Shown: positions 22,751 through 38,342 of the stretch, piece after piece
Layout: each line of letters starts with the position of its first letter
How positions within the stretch are numbered: the first letter of the stretch is position 1
NCBI GenBank assembly: GCA_017454855.1
Contig: JAFTCE010000027.1
Coordinates: 1-38,866 of the forward strand
DNA length: 38,866 nucleotides
Reading direction: 5' to 3'
Source: Desulfovibrio sp.
GTDB taxonomy: Bacteria > Desulfobacterota > Desulfovibrionia > Desulfovibrionales > Desulfovibrionaceae
Notes under the pieces: model-generated
The model's input: the letters and a program-made list of their open reading frames with translations, nothing else
Databases searched by the model: none
Told to the model about the DNA's origin: nothing
Made by a program: the position numbers and the translations under genes

Positions 22751-24622
22751 ATGCTTGACAAAAACATTCTTCAGGAATGCAGGGATCGTGCCCATATGCT
22801 CTGCCGAGAGCATGGGGCAAGCCTGCTCTATTTGACTCTTTTTGGTTCAACGCTCTATGGCACGGACATGCCGGGTAAATCCGACATTGATGTGCGTGGC
22901 ATTTTTCTGCCCTCTCAAAAAAATGCCATACTTGGAGAACTGCCCCGTAGTCTACATTGGTCGAGTGGAGACAATGTACACCGGAACAGTTCTGGTGACA
23001 TGGACATAGACCTCTGGTCCGTGCAGCATTGGCTGCTCAAACTCCTGCCCGCAGGCGACACTGGCGCCACGGATTTGCTCTTTTCGCCGTCGCACGCGGC
23101 CTGTACGCTGTATGCGGATACGCGACTTAAAAATGTTTTTGCCCATCCCGAACGTCTGTATGATGCCAAAAACTGCCGCGCCTATGCCGACTACAGCCTT
23201 GGCCAGGCCAAGAAATACGGCATCAAGGGTTCGCGTCTCGGCGCACTGCGTTCGGTTCACACATGGCTTAGGGAGCAAAATGGCTTGCGTGGCCAGGGAT
23301 TGCGCCTCAAGGACGTGCTGGACAGTCTGCTTGAGGCATGTGGAGACGACAGGTATTGCGCCTATACGGAAACCAATGCGCAGCCCGCCTTGCAGCTCTG
23401 TGGAAAAATCCATGTGGGCGCTGTCCGCTTGGAGGAGTTTCTTCAGCGCGTCGAAACCGACATGGATCGGTACGGCGCGAGGGCCATTGCCGCTGAACAC
23501 AATGAAGGCCTGGATTTCAAGGCGCTCTCCCATGCCCTGCGTGCTTTTGACCAGATGGAGGAACTGTACGCCACGGGAAAAATCGTCTTTCCGCTGGCCA
23601 CGCGTGAGCGCCTCAAATCGGTCAAGCGCGGTGATATTCCCTGGCTGGAGCTTGAGCAAATAATTGTCAATCGCCTGGTGGAAACCGACGCGGCACGGGA
23701 GCAAGCCCGCTGCGTCTGCGTGTATGACGCCGCCTTTGCTAGGGAACAGGTTCAAGCCTGTTATGGCCTGGCCTCCATGTGTGAGCTGCAAACGCAGACA
23801 GACGCTTTTGAGAACGGCTTTTCCGTACCTATCGAGGCAGCAAAGGCCGTTCATACGCGACTTGAGGAACTTGCATCCAAGTACGGCGTCAAGATTCTCT
23901 ATGCCGTGGAGTCCGGAAGCCGTGGATGGGGTTTTGCCTCGGTGGATTCGGACTTTGACGTCCGCTTTATCTATGCCCATGAACCAGAATGGTATCTTGG
24001 CGAAACACTTGCAAGACGCAACGATACCATCGCAATGCCCGTAGAGGATACCCCGGCTGGAGAACTTGATATCTGTGGCTGGGATTTAGAAAAGGCGCTT
24101 GGTTTGTTCAGCCATTCCAATGCCTCCCTCCTGGAATGGTTGTCTTCTCCTCTTGTCTATGTCCAATGCGGCTCCCTTGCCGACAGGTTGCGTACACTGC
24201 TGCCTGCAGAAGCAAACTGCTTCCGTTTGTGGCGTCATTACTGCAACATGGCAGGCTCTGCGGAACAACGTTACCTGGAAAAGCCCAGCATCAAGGCTTG
24301 GCTGTATGTCCTGCGGCCACTGCTCATGGCCTTGTGGATAGAGAACAAGAAGGCTGTGCCGCCCATGTGTTTTGAGCGTGTGCTGCATGACGTCATGCTG
24401 ACGGAAGACGTTCGCACGGCCATCCAGGAGATCGTGGACAAAAAACGTACGGGACTGGAGGAAATGCCCTTCACCCCGGCTCAGAGTGTGCAGAATTTTG
24501 TTCAAAAGACCATTGACAGGATAAAGGCTTTGCCCCCTACATTTGACGTGCCCCGAAGCAAGGTTGATTATCGACAGGAATTCAGGGCGCTTCTGCGGGA
24601 GGCATGGCCGTGTAGGCCCTAG
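22751..24622 (+). CDS. Tandem double RlaP/YcgL-type nucleotidyltransferase
   Basis: A 623-residue protein made of two polymerase-beta-superfamily nucleotidyltransferase domains of the RlaP/YcgL group (PF10127-like, from memory). Domain 1 has LTLFGSTLYGTDMPGKSDID with the GS pair at 32-33 and acids Asp45/Asp47. Domain 2 has ESGSRGWGFASVDSDFDVRF with Gly389-Ser390 and acids Asp401/Asp403, followed by INGWDL-like ICGWDLEKAL and LLEWLSSPLVY. Both active sites look intact. The family transfers nucleotides to unknown targets, and some members are linked to RNA ligases. The fusion of two copies is unusual. AGAGGA precedes ATG 22751. The RdgC-like gene follows after 47 bases. No membrane segment. Confidence 0.8.
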   Translation: MLDKNILQECRDRAHMLCREHGASLLYLTLFGSTLYGTDMPGKSDIDVRGIFLPSQKNAILGELPRSLHWSSGDNVHRNSSGDMDIDLWSVQHWLLKLLPAGDTGATDLLFSPSHAACTLYADTRLKNVFAHPERLYDAKNCRAYADYSLGQAKKYGIKGSRLGALRSVHTWLREQNGLRGQGLRLKDVLDSLLEACGDDRYCAYTETNAQPALQLCGKIHVGAVRLEEFLQRVETDMDRYGARAIAAEHNEGLDFKALSHALRAFDQMEELYATGKIVFPLATRERLKSVKRGDIPWLELEQIIVNRLVETDAAREQARCVCVYDAAFAREQVQACYGLASMCELQTQTDAFENGFSVPIEAAKAVHTRLEELASKYGVKILYAVESGSRGWGFASVDSDFDVRFIYAHEPEWYLGETLARRNDTIAMPVEDTPAGELDICGWDLEKALGLFSHSNASLLEWLSSPLVYVQCGSLADRLRTLLPAEANCFRLWRHYCNMAGSAEQRYLEKPSIKAWLYVLRPLLMALWIENKKAVPPMCFERVLHDVMLTEDVRTAIQEIVDKKRTGLEEMPFTPAQSVQNFVQKTIDRIKALPPTFDVPRSKVDYRQEFRALLREAWPCRP

Positions 24623-27896: not shown

Positions 27897-28769
27897 TCAG
27901 TGCAGCACCTGATTTTTACGAAAGTTGACGTAGGCTTCGCGCATGGCGATGTAGGGATCGACGGCGGCTGCGTTCAAATCGTCATAGAGAGGGAGAACGT
28001 CTCCCAGGGCGTTGAAGCGCAAGCCAGAGCTTATGCCCCAGGCCAATTCCCGGTAATCAGGCTGGTAGAGCAGTGGCCAGGGATTGAGCCAGAACGTCGG
28101 CTCCGCCAGCATGTCGCCCACGCGCCCGAAGGTGTCGCGAAGGGAACTGGGTCCTACGAAGGGCCAGACCAGATAAAAGCCGTGTCCTATGCCCCAGTAG
28201 CCCAGGGTCTGGCCAAAATCTTCTCCGCTGGGGTCGATGGGCACGACGGGCTTGTTACGTTTGGCCACGTCCGAAAAGCCGACGCTGGTAGTGGTATTGA
28301 TGATGAAGCGGCCAAATTCAACGCCTGCTTCCATAAAGCGGAATTGCAAAATGTTGTTGAGAAAACGCACAGGGAACAGGAGGTTGGAAAAGAAATTTTT
28401 TAAACCGCTGCGTACATCCTGTGGCGTGATGTATTCCCATGCACGATAGGCGGGTTTGGCCACATAGACGAAAAAGATGTCGTTAAAATGAAACCAGAAA
28501 CGGTTCCAGTATTCAAAGGGGTCTGCGATACTCGGCTGTCCTTGGTCGCTGTCGTAGTCATCCAGATCGGCTTCAATGGGCGTTTGGGCAGAAGGATGCA
28601 CCGTGACGGCACCTGGCCGTAGGGCGGGCGCATTACCATAGACCGCAGAGAGCGGCGGTTGCACAGGGACGGCATGAGCGGCGTACGCAGGTATGTCACA
28701 CAAACAGAAAAGCCCCAGAAGCAGGAAGCACGCAGCTGTTTCCCACCTTGAGGGAAAGCTATTGCACAT
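27897..28769 (-). CDS. mlaA: MlaA (VacJ) outer-membrane phospholipid transport protein
   Basis: A 290-residue protein that removes misplaced phospholipids from the outer leaflet of the outer membrane. The family core is DPFEYWNRFWFHFNDIFF, KPAYRAWEYITPQDVRSGLK, NNILQFRFMEAGVEFGRFII, DFGQTLGYWGIGHGFYLVWP and DPYIAMREAYVNFRKN. MlaA of E. coli is a lipoprotein. Here the signal peptide (ETAACFLLLGLFCLCDIPAYA) has no clean lipobox and a better signal peptidase I site at AYA-AHA. A proline-rich linker follows (residues 30-75). The start overlaps the end of mlaC by 11 bases. It is the last mla gene. Confidence 0.92.
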   Translation of the reverse strand: MCNSFPSRWETAACFLLLGLFCLCDIPAYAAHAVPVQPPLSAVYGNAPALRPGAVTVHPSAQTPIEADLDDYDSDQGQPSIADPFEYWNRFWFHFNDIFFVYVAKPAYRAWEYITPQDVRSGLKNFFSNLLFPVRFLNNILQFRFMEAGVEFGRFIINTTTSVGFSDVAKRNKPVVPIDPSGEDFGQTLGYWGIGHGFYLVWPFVGPSSLRDTFGRVGDMLAEPTFWLNPWPLLYQPDYRELAWGISSGLRFNALGDVLPLYDDLNAAAVDPYIAMREAYVNFRKNQVLH

Positions 28770-29406
28770 GGCCCTGCCGCACCTCCGCAGCCTTGACCCT
28801 GACCTTGGCGATGAGTTGATCTGGATTGCCTGTGTTCAGGATATCCTGAAATTGGGTACGATAGTTTTTCACGAGGCTGATGTTTTCCACGAGTACGTCA
28901 TAGACCAACCAGGTACCGTTCTTGGGCAACATACGGTAGAAGACGGGAATTTTTTTGCCATCCTTCATGGTGAGGAGTGTGCGCACTTCCGTCCGTTCTC
29001 CCTTGGGATCGACAACTTCACCAGTGTAAATGACCTGTTCGCCATTATAACCGTCAATCTTGTTCAGATAGGTTGTCATGAGCAAATCGGCAAAGACGTC
29101 GCTGAAGTCCTTCTGTTGCACTGGGCTAAATGTCTTCCAGCGTGGTCCCACGGTTCGGGAGGAAAATTCCATGAAATCAAAGATATGCAGGACTTCGTCC
29201 TCAATCTGCTGGCGCAGGGGGGCACGCGTAGCGGGATTGACGTAATCGGGATTTTTGATGGCAGAGAGTACGCGGTTGATGGATGTCTCCAGGGCCATAC
29301 GGGCAGGCGAGGCGGCATGCGCCATACCAACAGGCAAGAACAGCAGACAGACCAGCAGCACCGACACAATGGACGGCAGTGTAGGGGATGGCGAACGCTG
29401 GGACAT
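28759..29406 (-). CDS. mlaC: MlaC periplasmic phospholipid-binding protein
   Basis: A 215-residue protein (Tol_Tol_Ttg2 family) that shuttles phospholipid between MlaA and the inner-membrane complex. A signal peptide (VSVLLVCLLFLPVGMAHAA, cut near AHA-AS) is followed by the domain, with SRTVGPRWKTFSPVQQKDFS, FADLLMTTYLNKIDGY, GTWLVYDVLVENISLVKNYR and ILNTGNPDQLIAKVR. The length is near the family norm. It begins two bases after mlaD, so it is tightly coupled with mlaD and mlaA. Confidence 0.95.
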   Translation of the reverse strand: MSQRSPSPTLPSIVSVLLVCLLFLPVGMAHAASPARMALETSINRVLSAIKNPDYVNPATRAPLRQQIEDEVLHIFDFMEFSSRTVGPRWKTFSPVQQKDFSDVFADLLMTTYLNKIDGYNGEQVIYTGEVVDPKGERTEVRTLLTMKDGKKIPVFYRMLPKNGTWLVYDVLVENISLVKNYRTQFQDILNTGNPDQLIAKVRVKAAEVRQGHVQ

Positions 29407-29408
29407 GG

Positions 29409-29861
29409 CTATTTGACTCCTCCAAAAGCGTACTTGCTGATGAGCGTTCCAAGGTCAACGGCAGATTCCGTTTCAGTAATGGTTCCGCCATGTTCAAGCA
29501 TGTGCTCGGAACCTCCGCGAGAAAGGTTGATAAATTTATCACCAATGAGACCACTAGTGCGGATGGACGCCATGCTATCGTCGGAAAGGTGCAAATCGCG
29601 TTCCAGCCGCAGGCGCACCACGGCTTGATTGCGCAGTGGGTCGGGGTCAAGGTTGATGCTGATAACGCGACCTACGGGCACACCTGCCAACTCCACGTCT
29701 GCGCCCACTCGTAATCCTGAAACGGAGTCAAAAAAGGCGTTCAACTCAAAGCCCTGACTGCCAAAGACTTCCATCTTGCCGAGTTTGACGGTCATATACG
29801 CCACGCAGGCCAGGCCCAGGAGCATGAAAAGACCAACAAGGGTTTCACGTACTGCGTTCAT
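29409..29861 (-). CDS. mlaD: MlaD, MCE-domain protein
   Basis: A 150-residue inner-membrane protein whose ring of MCE domains forms the lipid channel of the Mla complex. One transmembrane helix (TLVGLFMLLGLACVAYMTVK, about residues 7-26) is followed by the MCE domain: FDSVSGLRVGADVELAGVPV, VRLRLERDLHLSDDSMASIR and GLIGDKFINLSRGG. ATG 29861 gives MNAVRETLVGLF, the normal start. A frame open to 29918 adds an untypical polar tail. It is preceded by a strong promoter at 29931-29959, so mlaD, mlaC and mlaA can be expressed without mlaF. Confidence 0.95.
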   Translation of the reverse strand: MNAVRETLVGLFMLLGLACVAYMTVKLGKMEVFGSQGFELNAFFDSVSGLRVGADVELAGVPVGRVISINLDPDPLRNQAVVRLRLERDLHLSDDSMASIRTSGLIGDKFINLSRGGSEHMLEHGGTITETESAVDLGTLISKYAFGGVK

Positions 29862-29930
29862 GGGACAATGACGACTCCTGTTTGCTTCAGATGTTTGACA
29901 TGGAGGAAGCAATTCCAAGAGAGAAAAGAT

Positions 29931-29959
29931 ATTATAAACAGTGTGCGGTAAATTTTCAA
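29931..29959 (-). promoter_or_regulatory. Strong sigma-70 promoter in front of mlaD
   Basis: On the minus strand, TTGAAA (29959-29954), a 17-base spacer and TATAAT (29936-29931). The -10 is a perfect consensus and the -35 has one mismatch. It lies about 70 bases upstream of the mlaD start and downstream of the mlaF stop. Confidence 0.75.
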
Positions 29960-30003
29960 GCCCGTATGCACAAGGAAACTACTCCTGACGCAGAAGATTT
30001 TGA

Positions 30004-30819
30004 CTAGGAGTCTAGCCAGCGCTTCAAAGCAGATGTTATTTCTGGGTTGGCAGGGGTTTCGAGGCTGGCCTCTCCGAACCCGGCCTGGCGTTGCAAAAAT
30101 TGGCGTAGATAGGGATTTTGGCTGCTTTCCAGAGCCTGGGGCGAACCTGCAAAGAGCGCACGGCCTTCGCCCAGAACCAGAACGTGTTCGGCGATGGCGT
30201 GCAGGCTCGCAAGGTCGTGGCTGACAACTACGATGGTCATGTCGGTATAGCGTTGGCGCATGGAAAGCAGTAGGGCATCCATACGGGCAGCTGTGACAGG
30301 ATCAAGTCCAGATGTCGGTTCGTCACAGAGCAGGATGCGCGGCTCGGCCACAATGGCCCGCGCCAAGCCGACGCGCTTGCGCATGCCGCCGGAAAGCTGG
30401 TTGGGATAATAATCGGCGAAATTCTCAAGGCCTACCATGCGCAGGACGCGCAAGCCTGCTTCGCGCAGCAAGGCATTGGGCAGACGCAGATGTTCGCTCA
30501 AGGGCAGAACGACATTTTGCACCAGGGTCAAGGCGCCCAGCAGAGCCCCATCTTGAAAAAGCACACCCATGTGTCGGCGTACCTGGCGAAAATCCTTACT
30601 TGGTAGGGAAAAGATATCTCGATCACCGAGCAGTATCTGGCCGCCAAGAGGCCGTGACAGACCGATGATGTGCCGGAGAAGTGTGGATTTACCGCAACCG
30701 GAGCCGCCCAGGATAACGGTGATTGCACCGCTGGGAATGACGGCATTGATGTCGTGAAGAATCTCATGTCTGCCGTAGCCGACGCTGAGATGACGGAATT
30801 CTATGTTCCATGCCTGCAT
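30004..30819 (-). CDS. mlaF: MlaF, ABC transporter ATPase
   Basis: A 271-residue ATPase that powers the Mla lipid transporter. Walker A GGSGCGKSTLLRHI, Q loop VLFQDGALLGALTLVQNV, signature QLSGGMRKRVGLARAI, Walker B ILLCDEPTSGLDP and switch His VVVSHDLAS. DGALLGALTLVQNV with LSGGMRKRV is typical of the MlaF/Ttg2A group. ATG 30819 follows AAGGTGG and begins MQAWNIEFRHLSVGYG. A frame open to 30897 is not supported. No mlaE permease gene adjoins it: the next upstream gene is yebC and the next downstream is mlaD. Confidence 0.93.
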   Translation of the reverse strand: MQAWNIEFRHLSVGYGRHEILHDINAVIPSGAITVILGGSGCGKSTLLRHIIGLSRPLGGQILLGDRDIFSLPSKDFRQVRRHMGVLFQDGALLGALTLVQNVVLPLSEHLRLPNALLREAGLRVLRMVGLENFADYYPNQLSGGMRKRVGLARAIVAEPRILLCDEPTSGLDPVTAARMDALLLSMRQRYTDMTIVVVSHDLASLHAIAEHVLVLGEGRALFAGSPQALESSQNPYLRQFLQRQAGFGEASLETPANPEITSALKRWLDS

Positions 30820-30859
30820 GAACACCACCTTCTGTCGTGCGGGCAGCATGGCCGCAGTC

Positions 30860-30890
30860 GCCGGACAGCATCGGCAGTCGGCTGTCCGGC
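30860..30890 (-). promoter_or_regulatory. 10-bp perfect hairpin between yebC and mlaF
   Basis: GCCGGACAGC (30860-30869) and GCTGTCCGGC (30881-30890) are exact reverse complements around an 11-base loop. It lies 13 bases after yebC ends. No T run follows, so it may act as an attenuator or 3'-end stabiliser and thereby set mlaF lower than the upstream genes. Confidence 0.5.
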
Positions 30891-30903
30891 AGAACACTGA
30901 CGG

Positions 30904-32360: not shown

Positions 32361-33740
32361 TTAATGTCCAGTGATGCTATATTTCTTCAGTTTGTACTGC
32401 AGAAGACTTTTGGAAATACCAAGATACTCCGCTGCCTTGACCTGCACGAGATCTGCGCGCACCAGCGCCCGCCGGATAAGGGCCGCTTCAATTTTTTCCA
32501 GCGTGTCAGCCAAATCGAGCTGCACGGGCAGCAGATCCACGGCGCTTTTGAATTGGGATTCCTCGTCGCGTATCTCCGCAGGCAAATTGTCTACTTCAAT
32601 GACAGTTCCTGGTACGAGTACAAGGCAGCTCTCTACGACATTTTCCAATTGGCGGATATTGCCCGGCCATTCAAAACCTGTCAGGTAGTTGAGGGCCTCT
32701 GTGCTGAAGGTTTTGGGCGGCATGGCGTTTTCAGAGCAGACTTTTTCCACGAAGTGGGCCACAAGTAGGGGAATATCTTCACGGCGTTCACGCAGAGGTG
32801 GCAGGGGAATCTGAACCACATTAAGCCGGTAGTAGAGATCGTCTCGAAATGTGCCCTTTGTTACCATGGAGGCAAGATCTTTGTTGGTGGCAGCTACGAC
32901 GCGGATATCAACTTCAATTTCCTCGCTGCCTCCCACGCGTTCGAAACGGCGTTCCTGCAGCACACGCAGCAATTTAACCTGCAAATCCGGTGTCAACTCT
33001 GCAATTTCATCCAAAAAGAGCGTGCCGCCGTCGGCCTGCTCGAAGCGTCCGCGCCGCATGGCAACAGCTCCGGTAAAGGAACCCTTTTCATGGCCAAAGA
33101 GTTCGCTTTCCAGGACACCCTGGTTCAGGGCCATGCAGTTGACGGAGACAAAGGGTTTGTCCTTGCGCGGACTCGTATAGTGGATGGCACGGGCTACAAG
33201 TTCCTTGCCCGTGCCGGATTCGCCCATAATAAGCACCGTTGCCCGACTGGGAGCCGCGCGTTCCACCATGAGCAGGACATCGCGGATGGCCTTGCTACGG
33301 CCCACGATTTTATGCACCCCATAGCGATCCTCCATGACTTCCTGCAGCAGTCGGTACTGGCGGTGCGCACGCGAAAGCTCTACGGCATTATGGATGGAAA
33401 GCAGCATTTCGTCATTGGAAAATGGCTTAGTAATATAGTCGAACGCACCGTATTTCATGAGTTCAACGGCGCTTTCAATGGAGCCGAAGGCCGTCATGAC
33501 GAGTACAGGGATGTGCGGCCAGTTTTTCTTGACCCGCTCCAGCACCTCTCTGCCCGAAATCTTGGGCATCTTCATGTCAGTTACGACGACATCCACTTCG
33601 CTTTCGTTCAAAAAGGCCAGGGCCGTCTCTGGATCGCTGATGGCGATAACCCCATAGCCCTCGTCTTCCAGCAGGGTCTGTAAGACCAAAAGGTAGTTTT
33701 TTTCATCGTCGATAATCAGGATTTGGGCTTTTTCGCTCAT
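32361..33740 (-). CDS. Sigma-54-dependent response regulator, NtrC family
   Basis: A 459-residue activator. The receiver domain is residues 5-120, with acidic pocket DDE at 11-13, phospho-accepting Asp55 in VVTDMKMP and Lys105. The AAA+ domain has Walker A GESGTGKE (173-180), the sigma-54 contact loop GSFTGA (220-225), Walker [11 protein letters not shown] and the R-finger region [21 protein letters not shown] Fis-type helix-turn-helix lies at about 420-455 ([20 protein letters not shown]). All needed parts are present, so it should activate sigma-54 promoters after phosphorylation. The partner kinase is 30 bases upstream. I found no clear TGGCAC-N5-TTGC promoter in the window as its target. 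Confidence 0.95.
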
Positions 33741-33770
33741 CAGAATTTCCTTGCAAGACTTTGGCCGACA

Positions 33771-35258
33771 TCATGCTTGACGAGCATCGACCGCAGGCAA
33801 CAAAATGCGCACCAGTGCCCCGCCTTCGGATCCGTTGTCAAGTTCGATGCTGCCGCCGTGGCTGGTGATAATGGACTGCACAATGGGCAGACCAAGGCCC
33901 GTGCCACCCTCCTTGGTGGTGAAAAAGGGGTCGAGCAGGCTGGGCAGGGTGGTGGCATCAAATCCTGGGCCTGAGTCCAGAAAATCCAGGCGGATGTGGC
34001 CTTCATTGTCGTTTTTGGCTAGGATGCGCACGATGCCCGGGCCGTCCATGGCCTGTTGTCCGTTGACAAGGATATTGTAAAATGCCCGGTACAGCAAATC
34101 TTTGTCGCCGTGGACAAAGATATTGGCTTCGCATTGGCGTTCAATGGCTATCTGCCGTCGTCCCCAGTCGCCTTCCAGAAAGGCCAGCGCCTGATCCAGA
34201 ACCAGGTTAACATCGACGAGATCTTGCCGCGGCTGTCGGGGGCGGGCATAATCCAGAAAGTCATTGACCGTCTGCGAAAGGCGGACGGCTTCATCGTAGA
34301 TGGCGCTCAGGATGCGACGCGTTCCGGCGTCGGCCTTGTCGGTGCGGCGCTGCAGGAGTTCGGCGCTGGAGCGGATGATACCGAGCGGATTGCGGATTTC
34401 ATGGGCTATACTGGCCACGACACGGCCCATGCTGACTAAGCGCTCATTGCTGTGGATCTGGTTTTCTAGCTGGCGGGTTTTGTTCATACGGGCAGCCAGA
34501 ACCCGCTCTGCGCGATGGATAAGCATGAGGAGCAAGCCGAACATGACCACGGAAGACATGAGGCACATGACGACAATGATGCCCTGAAAGGTCAAGACGC
34601 GTTCGTAATCGTCGGTGATGTCCTGCGTCAGTTCGAGCGCACCCATGATGGGCGCATCGCCAGCGGGAGAAAGAGGTTCGCCGCGCAGGGGGGAGAGGAT
34701 GCGCAGGACAAAGGAACCTGGGGCCAGCGGAACGCGGAAGGGTGCCTGCCATTGAGGGATAGATGCGAGAATTTCCGATCTGGAAGCGCCGTCATGGAGT
34801 ATTTCGTCAATATACGTCGGCGCAAGGCCCGAACGGCCCAGATCTTCCCTGTTGGTGGAGTACGCTGTGCGTCGCGAAAAATCATAGATGCGCAAACGTT
34901 CCAAGGGTAATCCGTGGATGACGGAATGCACAACCTGATCCAAACGCTCATATTGCTCTGTCTGGCGCAGTGCTATGTGACCATAGGCCATGAGTGTGGG
35001 CACAGCGAAGCGGCGAAATATCTGGCTGTTCAGGTTTTCCACCAGTTGCCGAGCAAATTCCTGTTGCCGTGTGAGCAGCGTTTCACGGGCGGAGTTGGAG
35101 ATAAAAAAAGAAAGCCCAAGGCTTGTGAGGACAATGATGAGCAGAGAAAGCCAGGACAGCGTGCGGGCATAGCTAGGCAGGGCGTTTTCCGTATCGGCAG
35201 CGGAAACGTCGCCCTGCTGTGTGGAATCTGTGCCGAGATCAATGTTAGGGTCAGACAT
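33771..35258 (-). CDS. Membrane sensor histidine kinase
   Basis: A 495-residue kinase. Transmembrane helix 1 is at about 33-55 and helix 2 at about 223-248, with a sensor of about 165 residues between them (YDFSRRTAYSTNREDLGRSG) that should face the periplasm. After a linker come the H box SIAHEIRNPLG (His286), the N box NILVNGQQA, the G1 box DSGPGF, a FFTTKEGGTGLGL G2 region and the C-terminus. Resembles ZraS/AtoS-type kinases. The gene starts three bases after the 1026-residue gene and is 30 bases upstream of the regulator, so the three are one unit. The signal is unknown. Confidence 0.95.
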   Translation of the reverse strand: MSDPNIDLGTDSTQQGDVSAADTENALPSYARTLSWLSLLIIVLTSLGLSFFISNSARETLLTRQQEFARQLVENLNSQIFRRFAVPTLMAYGHIALRQTEQYERLDQVVHSVIHGLPLERLRIYDFSRRTAYSTNREDLGRSGLAPTYIDEILHDGASRSEILASIPQWQAPFRVPLAPGSFVLRILSPLRGEPLSPAGDAPIMGALELTQDITDDYERVLTFQGIIVVMCLMSSVVMFGLLLMLIHRAERVLAARMNKTRQLENQIHSNERLVSMGRVVASIAHEIRNPLGIIRSSAELLQRRTDKADAGTRRILSAIYDEAVRLSQTVNDFLDYARPRQPRQDLVDVNLVLDQALAFLEGDWGRRQIAIERQCEANIFVHGDKDLLYRAFYNILVNGQQAMDGPGIVRILAKNDNEGHIRLDFLDSGPGFDATTLPSLLDPFFTTKEGGTGLGLPIVQSIITSHGGSIELDNGSEGGALVRILLPAVDARQA

Positions 35259-35261
35259 GGG

Positions 35262-38200
35262 TCAGCCTTGTAGGGGGATATCGGGGCAATGCAGCCTGCT
35301 GGATGCTTCCCGGCGTAATTCTCGAACATAGCTACGGTTTTTTTGCAGATAGAAGGCCAGGGCCCGGGCGAAATCCCTGTTCAGCAGACCGTCCAGAATG
35401 AGCGTGCTGATTTCTCTTTCCAAGGTAAGCAGGGAATGTAAGGCCATGATAGCGCCGCGCTCCTCCGGCGGGGACATGCACATCTTGCGCCAGAAAACCT
35501 CCCGCGCACGCGGTTGATAATACCACATGTACATCATATCCAGCAGGTGAGCAATGGCTTGACGCGCAAGGGCAGGATCCTTTGCGTACAGGGCCCGCCA
35601 GTAGACTGTGGGTTCCCTAAGCATGGTTACAATGTCACGGTGCGGAAAAAGTAGCTCCTGCCGCGCAAGATTGGCGTATATGCGCGTCATTTTGCTGTCG
35701 TAATCGGATTGCCGCAAGCGCAAATAGGAATTGCGATCGGCAAAGCCTTCAATAACAGCGGCTACCAGGTCAGAAGAGCATTTGGAGACGATGGCCGCGC
35801 AGTTTTGTAAGAGCATGACTGGTTCTGGTAGCTGCAAGCTCTCGAAGCAGACCAGCAAGCCTTGGCCTAAAACCATGGAAAGGGGTATGGACAGGGCGCT
35901 GCGGAAGAAGTTGCCGATGATGGCTTCCTTTTGCAGGCCGCGGTAGATATTGTGTCCGGAAATATAGAAGCTGTTGACAAAGGCGATGACAGTATAGACC
36001 AGTAAGGCGTTGTTCTGCACGGTAATGCCCAAGAGATCCTGCAGCAGCCAGAGCCGCACAACTACCTCCAGCAGAGGTACGGAAATGCCCGTATACAGGA
36101 GGGAATCGGCCATGCGAGTCCAGCTGACATAGCGTTTCCAGGGTACCAGCAGGGAGCGCGTAAATGCCCCTCCGCCTACCATGGATTGGGCTAGATTGCG
36201 CACAAAGGTGATGATATACCAGATGAGCGCGCCGAACCAGGTGAGTACCCACCAACCGTCCACATAGCAGAAGGCCCACTGCGCTGGCAAAAAACCCGCC
36301 AGAACCTTGAGCAGATTGGCAATATTGGTGTTCATGTAGGCAGGCGACCAGGCCGGTATTGTTTGCCTCTGGGGCGCAGGTGTTTGGCGGCTTTCCCGGT
36401 TCAGTCCCTTGTCGTCCACGCCCCCAAGAGTGACCAAATTGCCGTGGCGGCTGAAGCGCGTTGTCTTTTTTTCCAGCTCCCAGCCGCAAATTTTCAGGCA
36501 GCCCCAGTGTTGCAAGCCAGGTATCTGCCGCAGCCATTGGCGCCAGGTGGGCAGGGGCTGCTCGTGGTGCTGTGTATAGCTGAACATGTCGGTGTGCAGA
36601 GGCAGCGTGAGGCGTTGTTCGTTTTTTTCCCGGCGCAGTTCCCTGCGGGCTCGTGGGGGCAGTGTTTCCACAAAGACTAGCCCCATGCCGTGCGTGTGGT
36701 GCGAAAGGCTGGTGGAATCCGTGCCGATGCGCGATCCCAGCGGGGCCAGGGCGTAGAATTCTTGCAATCTGGGGATGTGATCTAAAATGTTGTGAAAAAG
36801 GGGAAGCCTATCGGAATTCGGCGGCTCGCCATCCATAATCTGGCGAATGATCTGCTTCAGGCGCGGTGCGCTTCCCTCGTTGAGTGCGCGTTGCAGTGCG
36901 TTGATTTCTTCCGCATGACTGAGCTGACCGCTAGTCCATTGGCGCAGGTTGAAAAGTTCCACATGGGTGATCCGTCCCTCACCGCGCCAGAGCAGCTCCA
37001 ATACGTCCTGGGCTGTCAGACCGGAGATGCTGAGGATGAACTGGCAAGGGTGCAGGGGATGCAGCCTCTTCAGGAGCAGTTCCGGCTGTTTGAGAAGCAC
37101 CTCCGGCAACTGCGCTTCGGGCTTGCGGGGAAAGACGATGTCGGGATTGGCTTTTGGGCTGAGACAGTCCTCTAGGAGAAGATCTGGCACGATGGCTTCC
37201 AGCTCGTCCAGGCTGCTGCGTAAGCGCGCTGCGGTCTCAGGATGTCTTTCGTTTTCCAGGGCGTTGCGCAGATGGGTATCGCGCTCACGCAGGAGAGGTA
37301 CAAGCTGCTGGTAGATGTATTCGGCCAGATGTAGAGCCGATGGCTGGCGTTGGCCTACAAAGGCCAGAAACTCCGTCTCGTCCAGGGGAGCCGGAACAGG
37401 CAGGTTCCAGCGCGAGGCCAGGGCCGTGCGGTGTATGCTGTTCCAGGCATGCAGCAGGGCAAGGACATGGCAGCGCATCCAGTCATTGACAGGGGCATAG
37501 TCCTTGAGGATTTCCGCCACGTCTGGGCGCTGCAGTAATTGGTTGAATGTTTTGGAATCGTTGATATTGAGCGGCGACCAGGTAAGCTCCACGAGCTTGT
37601 CGCGGTAGGTGGCCTTGAACTCAATGCCGATGCGTACGGTGATGCCCATAATCCGCGCCGAGGTAAGCAATTCTCGTGCGGCAGCGGGATCAACCGTATT
37701 GTAGTAGATGACCGTGAGAAAACGTATGCCCTTGATCCAGGCGTCCATAATGAGATGGGTAGGACTTTTGCGGCCCTTAGTGTTGGCATCATGGACATGG
37801 TGGTCAAATGCCTGCTGATTCCATTCCTCGGGCATTTCCAGCAAATGGTACTTGCGTAGTAATGCGCGAATAACCCGCGGCGCCCCGCGCACGGCGCTGT
37901 GAAACTCATGCGCCAGAGGGAGTTGCCGGGCATGGTCTTGGCTGGCGCGAACCAGGTTTTTCATGATTTGCACCAGCACCCGAGCCGTATTGTTGCGCAG
38001 GGAAGAGTGTGAGGAATAGAGTACTTCGTCGTGCATGCGGCGCAGGGCGCGGATGCGCTCGCTGGCGTCGCCGACCTCCAAGCTTTCCAGAAGGACAATG
38101 ACGGCAGCGGCGAGGCGCAAACCGTGTTCGGAGGTCATCTCAATGATGCCGTTGGGATGCAAGTCCGATTCGGGAGGTGGCAGGGCCTTGCGTCGGGCAC

Positions 38201-38342
38201 GCGCCGCAACGAAATTGTTGACCATCTGCAGGAGTTTGTAATCCTGCTGGTCAAAGAGCAGGCGGGAAGCGTGCGTTGCGCGCCCTGTGGCACGTCGTGG
38301 ATGAGAAATGGCTGTTTTCTCGCCTACGCGTGTGGTCATCAT
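35262..38342 (-). CDS. 1026-residue membrane protein with PHP-phosphoesterase-like motif
   Basis: A large protein I do not know from a named system. Residues 1-160 look helical. Residues 178-245 have FDHHVHDANTKGRKSP (HVH at 182-184), a GIRFLTVIYYNTVDP strand and GITVRIGIEFKATYR (Glu241): the order HxH, then a glycine-isoleucine-glutamate strand, is that of PHP-type metal phosphoesterases. A later TDSTSLSHHTHG (541-552) resembles their final Asp/His motif, and HPLHPC at 428-433 may add ligands. Five or so hydrophobic segments lie at about 675-715, 745-765, 768-795, 812-835 and 842-865, then a helical C-terminal tail of about 160 residues. So a cytoplasmic catalytic part on a membrane anchor is inferred. 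It lies between trpS (23 bases) and the histidine kinase (3 bases). Confidence 0.75.
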   Translation of the reverse strand: MMTTRVGEKTAISHPRRATGRATHASRLLFDQQDYKLLQMVNNFVAARARRKALPPPESDLHPNGIIEMTSEHGLRLAAAVIVLLESLEVGDASERIRALRRMHDEVLYSSHSSLRNNTARVLVQIMKNLVRASQDHARQLPLAHEFHSAVRGAPRVIRALLRKYHLLEMPEEWNQQAFDHHVHDANTKGRKSPTHLIMDAWIKGIRFLTVIYYNTVDPAAARELLTSARIMGITVRIGIEFKATYRDKLVELTWSPLNINDSKTFNQLLQRPDVAEILKDYAPVNDWMRCHVLALLHAWNSIHRTALASRWNLPVPAPLDETEFLAFVGQRQPSALHLAEYIYQQLVPLLRERDTHLRNALENERHPETAARLRSSLDELEAIVPDLLLEDCLSPKANPDIVFPRKPEAQLPEVLLKQPELLLKRLHPLHPCQFILSISGLTAQDVLELLWRGEGRITHVELFNLRQWTSGQLSHAEEINALQRALNEGSAPRLKQIIRQIMDGEPPNSDRLPLFHNILDHIPRLQEFYALAPLGSRIGTDSTSLSHHTHGMGLVFVETLPPRARRELRREKNEQRLTLPLHTDMFSYTQHHEQPLPTWRQWLRQIPGLQHWGCLKICGWELEKKTTRFSRHGNLVTLGGVDDKGLNRESRQTPAPQRQTIPAWSPAYMNTNIANLLKVLAGFLPAQWAFCYVDGWWVLTWFGALIWYIITFVRNLAQSMVGGGAFTRSLLVPWKRYVSWTRMADSLLYTGISVPLLEVVVRLWLLQDLLGITVQNNALLVYTVIAFVNSFYISGHNIYRGLQKEAIIGNFFRSALSIPLSMVLGQGLLVCFESLQLPEPVMLLQNCAAIVSKCSSDLVAAVIEGFADRNSYLRLRQSDYDSKMTRIYANLARQELLFPHRDIVTMLREPTVYWRALYAKDPALARQAIAHLLDMMYMWYYQPRAREVFWRKMCMSPPEERGAIMALHSLLTLEREISTLILDGLLNRDFARALAFYLQKNRSYVRELRREASSRLHCPDIPLQG

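Follow-up and report, generated by a model that had tools for sequence, protein, structure and literature searches.

Gene layout of the locus

The window analysed here is the whole 38,866-nt stretch of contig JAFTCE010000027.1 from Desulfovibrio sp. (assembly GCA_017454855.1, forward strand, positions 1-38,866). Its minus strand carries the gene of a 1026-residue PHP-like membrane protein (35262..38342, stop codon included), an open reading frame with full-length homologues in many genomes. Three bases separate its stop from the start of a 495-residue histidine kinase (33771..35258, minus strand; Pfam HisKA and HATPase_c), in which hydrophobic segments were spotted by eye. Next comes the gene of a 459-residue NtrC/AtoC-type sigma-54 activator (32361..33740, minus strand; Pfam Response_reg, Sigma54_activat and HTH_8, together with NCBIfam). 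On the other flank of the large reading frame is the end of a gene that we take, from its KMSKS stretch, to encode tryptophanyl-tRNA synthetase. The initial annotation had the three genes and their spacing in the right places and named the following residues correctly: H182-V-H184, G239-I-E241, T541-D542-S543 and H548-H549-T550-H551.

Elsewhere in the window, an Mla phospholipid-transport cluster at 27897-30897 on the minus strand encodes an ABC ATPase, MlaD, MlaC and MlaA. The MlaE permease is absent between the ATPase and MlaD, where there are about 85 bases, and two MlaE matches are found on other contigs of the same genome. In addition, the 623-residue product of a gene at 22751-24622 on the plus strand matches RlaP, an RNA repair pathway nucleotidyltransferase domain, at E 4e-74.

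Fold and distribution of the PHP-like protein

The proposal that the protein carries a PHP-type barrel on a membrane anchor is borne out by the AF2 model, structure comparison and a profile match. Residues 176-560 (36663..37817; all coordinates within this gene are on the minus strand) form a PHP-type beta/alpha barrel in the model, with ten-residue mean pLDDT values mostly of 71-89 across residues 211-530. The profile match to PHP has an E-value of 4e-5 and a probability of 70%, compared with 0.31 for the reversed profile and 0.046 for the best of 50 shuffles; its alignment spans 94 columns only, i.e. the first strands. Mean pLDDT of the whole model is 58, and values below 50 at residues 150-181, 187-190 and 539-597 make its site geometry unreliable. 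The domain was recognised by eye in the initial annotation and is missed by Pfam: a scan of the window protein gave no family at E ≤1, and a scan of 46 barrel segments at E ≤0.1 hit 7 families, none of them PF02811. Searches for solved relatives found none at E ≤10 with the single protein, and the best hits of a 68-row profile (E 0.61) and a 46-row barrel profile (E 0.38) included no PHP protein.

For the conservation analysis, the window protein was aligned with 88 homologues, leaving out duplicates and rows shorter than 950 residues; the resulting 89 rows take in near relatives and second copies, so that the counts given below are not independent events. The barrel is interrupted by a helical insertion (residues 263-430; 37053..37556) bearing a near-invariant His338 (88/89), and its first segment is the most conserved of seven regions compared, with a mean top-residue frequency of 0.74. 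It is preceded by a helical region without an assigned family (residues 30-175; 37818..38255; AF2, low pLDDT), where 22 of 146 columns are at least 97% conserved. The initial annotation had counted about five membrane helices after the barrel. Helices are indeed present there, and hydropathy and the model place about six of them at residues 667-868 (35739..36344), with many invariant polar residues; across the membrane part (661-870), 35 of 210 columns are at least 97% conserved. Hydropathy over the alignment and the model, read with the positive-inside rule, suggests six helices with both termini inside, and a C-terminal helical region (residues 871-1026; 35265..35732; AF2 and hydropathy) is predicted to be cytoplasmic. 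Folded alone, the membrane part yielded a low-confidence model with no solved-structure match listed, which excludes nothing. The predicted architecture would thus run from a helical N-terminus through a cytoplasmic PHP-type barrel with its large helical insertion to a membrane part of about six helices, and would end in a further helical region.

Of 199 genomes sampled from the window's own taxonomic family, 165 have a match; in a sample of 297 from the phylum the number is 33, of which 11 belong to that same family. Searching with the 68-row profile instead gives 32/297 for the phylum; the one genome lost, G359, has a 320-residue frame (E 4.6e-4) that may be an ordinary PHP protein. The phylum sample also brought up a second clade, through genome G355, that is about 25% identical to the first; in the order to which G355 belongs, 44 of 116 genomes match, both clades counted together. 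The six clade-2 members with long frames all keep HVHD, GRK, YY, Glu241, His338, Glu462, Asn465 and GMG. Motifs of the membrane part are also kept in five of them; the sixth, G549, has its gene broken into two reading frames that overlap (L276, 6016-8804), of which the first was aligned. A seventh member (G586) is just a short fragment containing a stop.

We found no description of this family, whose members occur in Desulfovibrio and other bacteria of its phylum. A literature search returned no paper on a comparable membrane-anchored PHP protein; the word 'PHP' is absent from the main text of the Desulfovibrio regulator paper PMC3333781, and in the excerpted text of a second one, PMC4641369, it occurs solely in a web address. 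PHROGs gave a single family with no function stated (E 0.025), and neither PADLOC nor a plasmid search gave a match.

An incomplete metal site

PHP enzymes coordinate their metals through nine ligands (H H D/H H E H C/H D/N H; Table 1 of PMC3666897). As set out in an excerpt of PMC11656708, HxH and an Asp bind the alpha metal, two His the beta metal and Asp-His-His the gamma metal, with a Glu bridging alpha and beta. Each of 19 RNase AM-like PHP proteins taken from related genomes has all nine without exception. The proteins of the present family keep at most four and have five replaced, and 16 of the 89 rows lose at least one of the remaining four. A complete metal-dependent phosphoesterase site is not supported, which weakens the enzyme reading of the initial annotation.

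In the motif D180-x-HVHD-ANT-KGRK192 (37767..37805), the first-strand HxH is kept (H182 in 85, V183 in 88, H184 in 83 and D185 in 89 of the 89 rows), and the Asp of the SDG motif, a gamma ligand, is replaced by Lys189 (88/89). Tyr214 takes the place of the gamma His of the DH motif (81/89), the first beta His pairs with the variable position 252, and the second would fall at the strand near residues 437-441. Glu241 (37620..37622; 86/89) is the equivalent of the bridging Glu, as aligned by hhalign to the GCE motif. The stretch G540-T-D542-S-T544...G552-M-G (36681..36725), modelled with pLDDT below 50, can be read as the counterpart of GGSDxHG with its His lost: Asp542 is found in 74 rows, Ser543 in 88 and G552, M553 and G554 in 89 each, and Thr544 replaces the SDxH His in 78. 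The second beta ligand and Asp542 were placed by motif reading rather than by residue-level structural alignment. Glu462 is also conserved (88/89).

Of the residues singled out in the initial annotation, HVH and Glu241 are strongly conserved, being kept in most of clade 1 and in 6/6 clade-2 members, and Asp542 is less so. The HHTH cluster is poorly conserved (H548 in 27, H549 in 23 and H551 in 53 of 89 rows) and was rejected as a metal site on this ground.

His182, His184, Glu241 and Asp542 occur together (HHED) in 73 rows. At these four positions the other 16 read HYES (4), RHEG (4), HHEG (3), HYEN (2), HHDR (2) and HHLD (1). HxH is altered in ten rows, all among the 15 without Asp542, and such joint loss would fit a shared site; with about three changes per trait on the FastTree tree, a covariation test is without power. 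Summed over regions, the 16 altered-site rows retain 2046 of 2160 other conserved residues, so these copies do not look like decaying genes. The genome of the window itself carries one of them as a second family copy (L038, 4420-7458, contig G000:C61) that has Tyr184 and Ser542 with the rest conserved; the four HYES rows, all of this genus, group together on the tree. Position 542 is Ala in 6/6 clade-2 members examined, and position 189 is Glu in five and Ala in one.

The closest known PHP proteins differ from this one. RNase AM/RNM (YciV; NCBIfam NF047791; PDB 9etk, 7ug9) has the nine ligands of which five are replaced here, whereas the window protein has 1026 residues with a large insertion and a membrane part, and it scores 13.9 bits against the curated NF047791 cut-off of 375. 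BAD_1165 (3o0f) and a C. violaceum PHP protein with Mn, AMP and phosphate (2yb1) have only 287 and 284 residues and lack a membrane part; both presumably have complete metal sites, and we take 2yb1 to be a 3',5'-nucleoside bisphosphate phosphatase. The variant PHP domain of E. coli DNA polymerase III alpha (2hnh) lost another ligand set and is not in a membrane protein; unlike it, the protein described here mostly keeps the alpha set.

Genomic neighbours and possible roles

The initial annotation tied the protein to the adjoining kinase and stated that the gene's failure to stay next to it in relatives would count against that link. Among 61 congeneric genomes, the kinase is present in 60, the PHP-like family in 59 and a close orthologue of the window gene (at least 63% identity) in 16, while the two genes are contiguous by their coordinates in five: the window's, G540, G521, G505 and G488. 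The same five species account for the adjacency seen at 5 of 65 family loci (L001, L003, L002, L005 and the window). Among 18 fetched kinase regions, 14 have no PHP-like gene, and the regulator adjoins the kinase in 13 of those 14; in G040, assembled as one contig, the kinase is about 240 kb from either PHP-like copy. One observation on the other side is locus L042, where a different histidine-kinase homologue (25% identity) follows after 20 bases, encoded on the opposite strand, and regulator-like genes are found less than 5 kb away. Sigma-54-type -24/-12 sites show no excess in the window (32 with up to two mismatches, vs. 31.4 expected). Since kinase adjacency is not conserved, the gene does not behave as an operonic accessory of a two-component system, and the kinase and regulator are probably an independent system that neighbours it in one small clade. 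They belong to the same general class as AtoS/AtoC and ZraS/ZraR; their best NCBIfam scores are to AtoS and AtoC, below the equivalog cut-offs, and they are not tied to the PHP-like gene.

Clustering of neighbours over the 65 family loci gave no partner common to more than 10, and a Pfam scan of 30 chosen neighbours returned mixed functions, or none for some. They include phosphoesterase-type genes at L058 and L149 and, at L065 and L067, matches to Pfam's DNA polymerase III delta subunit family. Conspicuous were glycerophosphodiesterase genes in two lineages far apart (730-1497 in L236, 3439-4377 in L268 and 4387-5319 in L270); the two sorts share about 32% identity across a portion of their sequences. 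The gene is directly upstream of the family member on the same strand in G117, G140, G149, G186 and G193 (one subclade of one genus, 5/14 located) and in the clade-2 genomes G355 and G594 (2/6 members); in G608 it is about 14 kb away. All seven family copies that adjoin it are without Asp542, but there are also copies without Asp542 that lack this neighbour. A glycerophosphodiesterase match is absent from the window's genome, and the link is also missing in most members examined. Noticed post hoc, these neighbours point to phospholipid metabolism as a lead; since glycerophosphodiesterase genes are widespread, occurring in 94 of 199 genomes, the adjacency is suggestive and no proof.

Taking together the fold, the incomplete metal site, the wide distribution and the lack of a conserved kinase link, all of which come directly from the computations, we put at about an even chance a degenerate PHP-barrel membrane protein that acts as a binder, sensor, scaffold or weak hydrolase, with the kinase pair a bystander; the alternatives below overlap with this reading and with one another, so their likelihoods are not meant to add up. 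The barrel would no longer be a three-metal phosphoesterase; in most members it may hold at most one metal, through the alpha set His182, His184, Glu241 and Asp542, with Lys189 sitting where a gamma-metal ligand once was. Its ligand would most probably be a small phosphorylated molecule or the head group of a lipid, bound at the inner face of the membrane. Binding would be relayed to the membrane part, with the barrel serving as sensor or scaffold or having gained some weak hydrolytic activity. A genuine active site would explain the near-invariance of His338, Glu462 and Lys189-Gly-Arg-Lys equally well. In a minority reading the barrel is a true hydrolase whose site has been rebuilt around one metal: the alpha metal would activate water, Lys189 would stabilise charge in place of the gamma metal, His338 of the insertion would add groups, and the substrate would be lipid-linked or glycerophospho. 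The 73 HHED rows, the 88/89 conservation of Lys189, His338 and Glu462 and the glycerophosphodiesterase neighbours favour it. Against it, several lineages have lost Asp542 and HxH with the remainder conserved, clade 2 has Ala542 and Glu or Ala at 189, and the seven copies beside glycerophosphodiesterases all lack Asp542; moreover, we know of no PHP enzyme using such a mechanism of one metal and a lysine.

Comparable in weight to that hydrolase is a barrel with a purely structural role, for which E. coli Pol III alpha is a precedent (from an excerpt of PMC3666897), and a membrane part functioning in transport or lipid handling. The conservation of the membrane part and the persistence of damaged-site copies, including the one in the window's genome, speak for it. 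Against it stands the first barrel segment, which exceeds the other regions compared in conservation and keeps charged residues such as KGRK that a fold alone would presumably not need. Somewhat less probable still is a phospholipid-linked membrane enzyme or sensor with a single-metal barrel and a near-invariant lysine for the lost metal, non-catalytic in some lineages; two of these would pair with a separate glycerophosphodiesterase, by analogy with the variant PHP domain of Pol III and its separate exonuclease. The membrane phosphoesterase dedicated to the kinase and sigma-54 activator, as first proposed, can draw on the 3-base spacing and contiguity in four close relatives; the adjacency counts (5/61 genomes, and 5/16 with a close orthologue), the distant kinase in G040 and the kinase-regulator pairs kept without a PHP-like gene refute it and leave it very improbable. 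The degenerate barrel remains our preferred reading: at the membrane it would likely bind a phosphorylated ligand or process it weakly, and it may do so in phospholipid metabolism.

These results remove a tempting false two-component link that could have misdirected experiments. A large membrane protein so far without annotation, with matches in 165 of the 199 genomes sampled from the window's family, is placed in the PHP fold class with candidate residues named, and the variant PHP domains that have shed metals gain a membrane-bound example.
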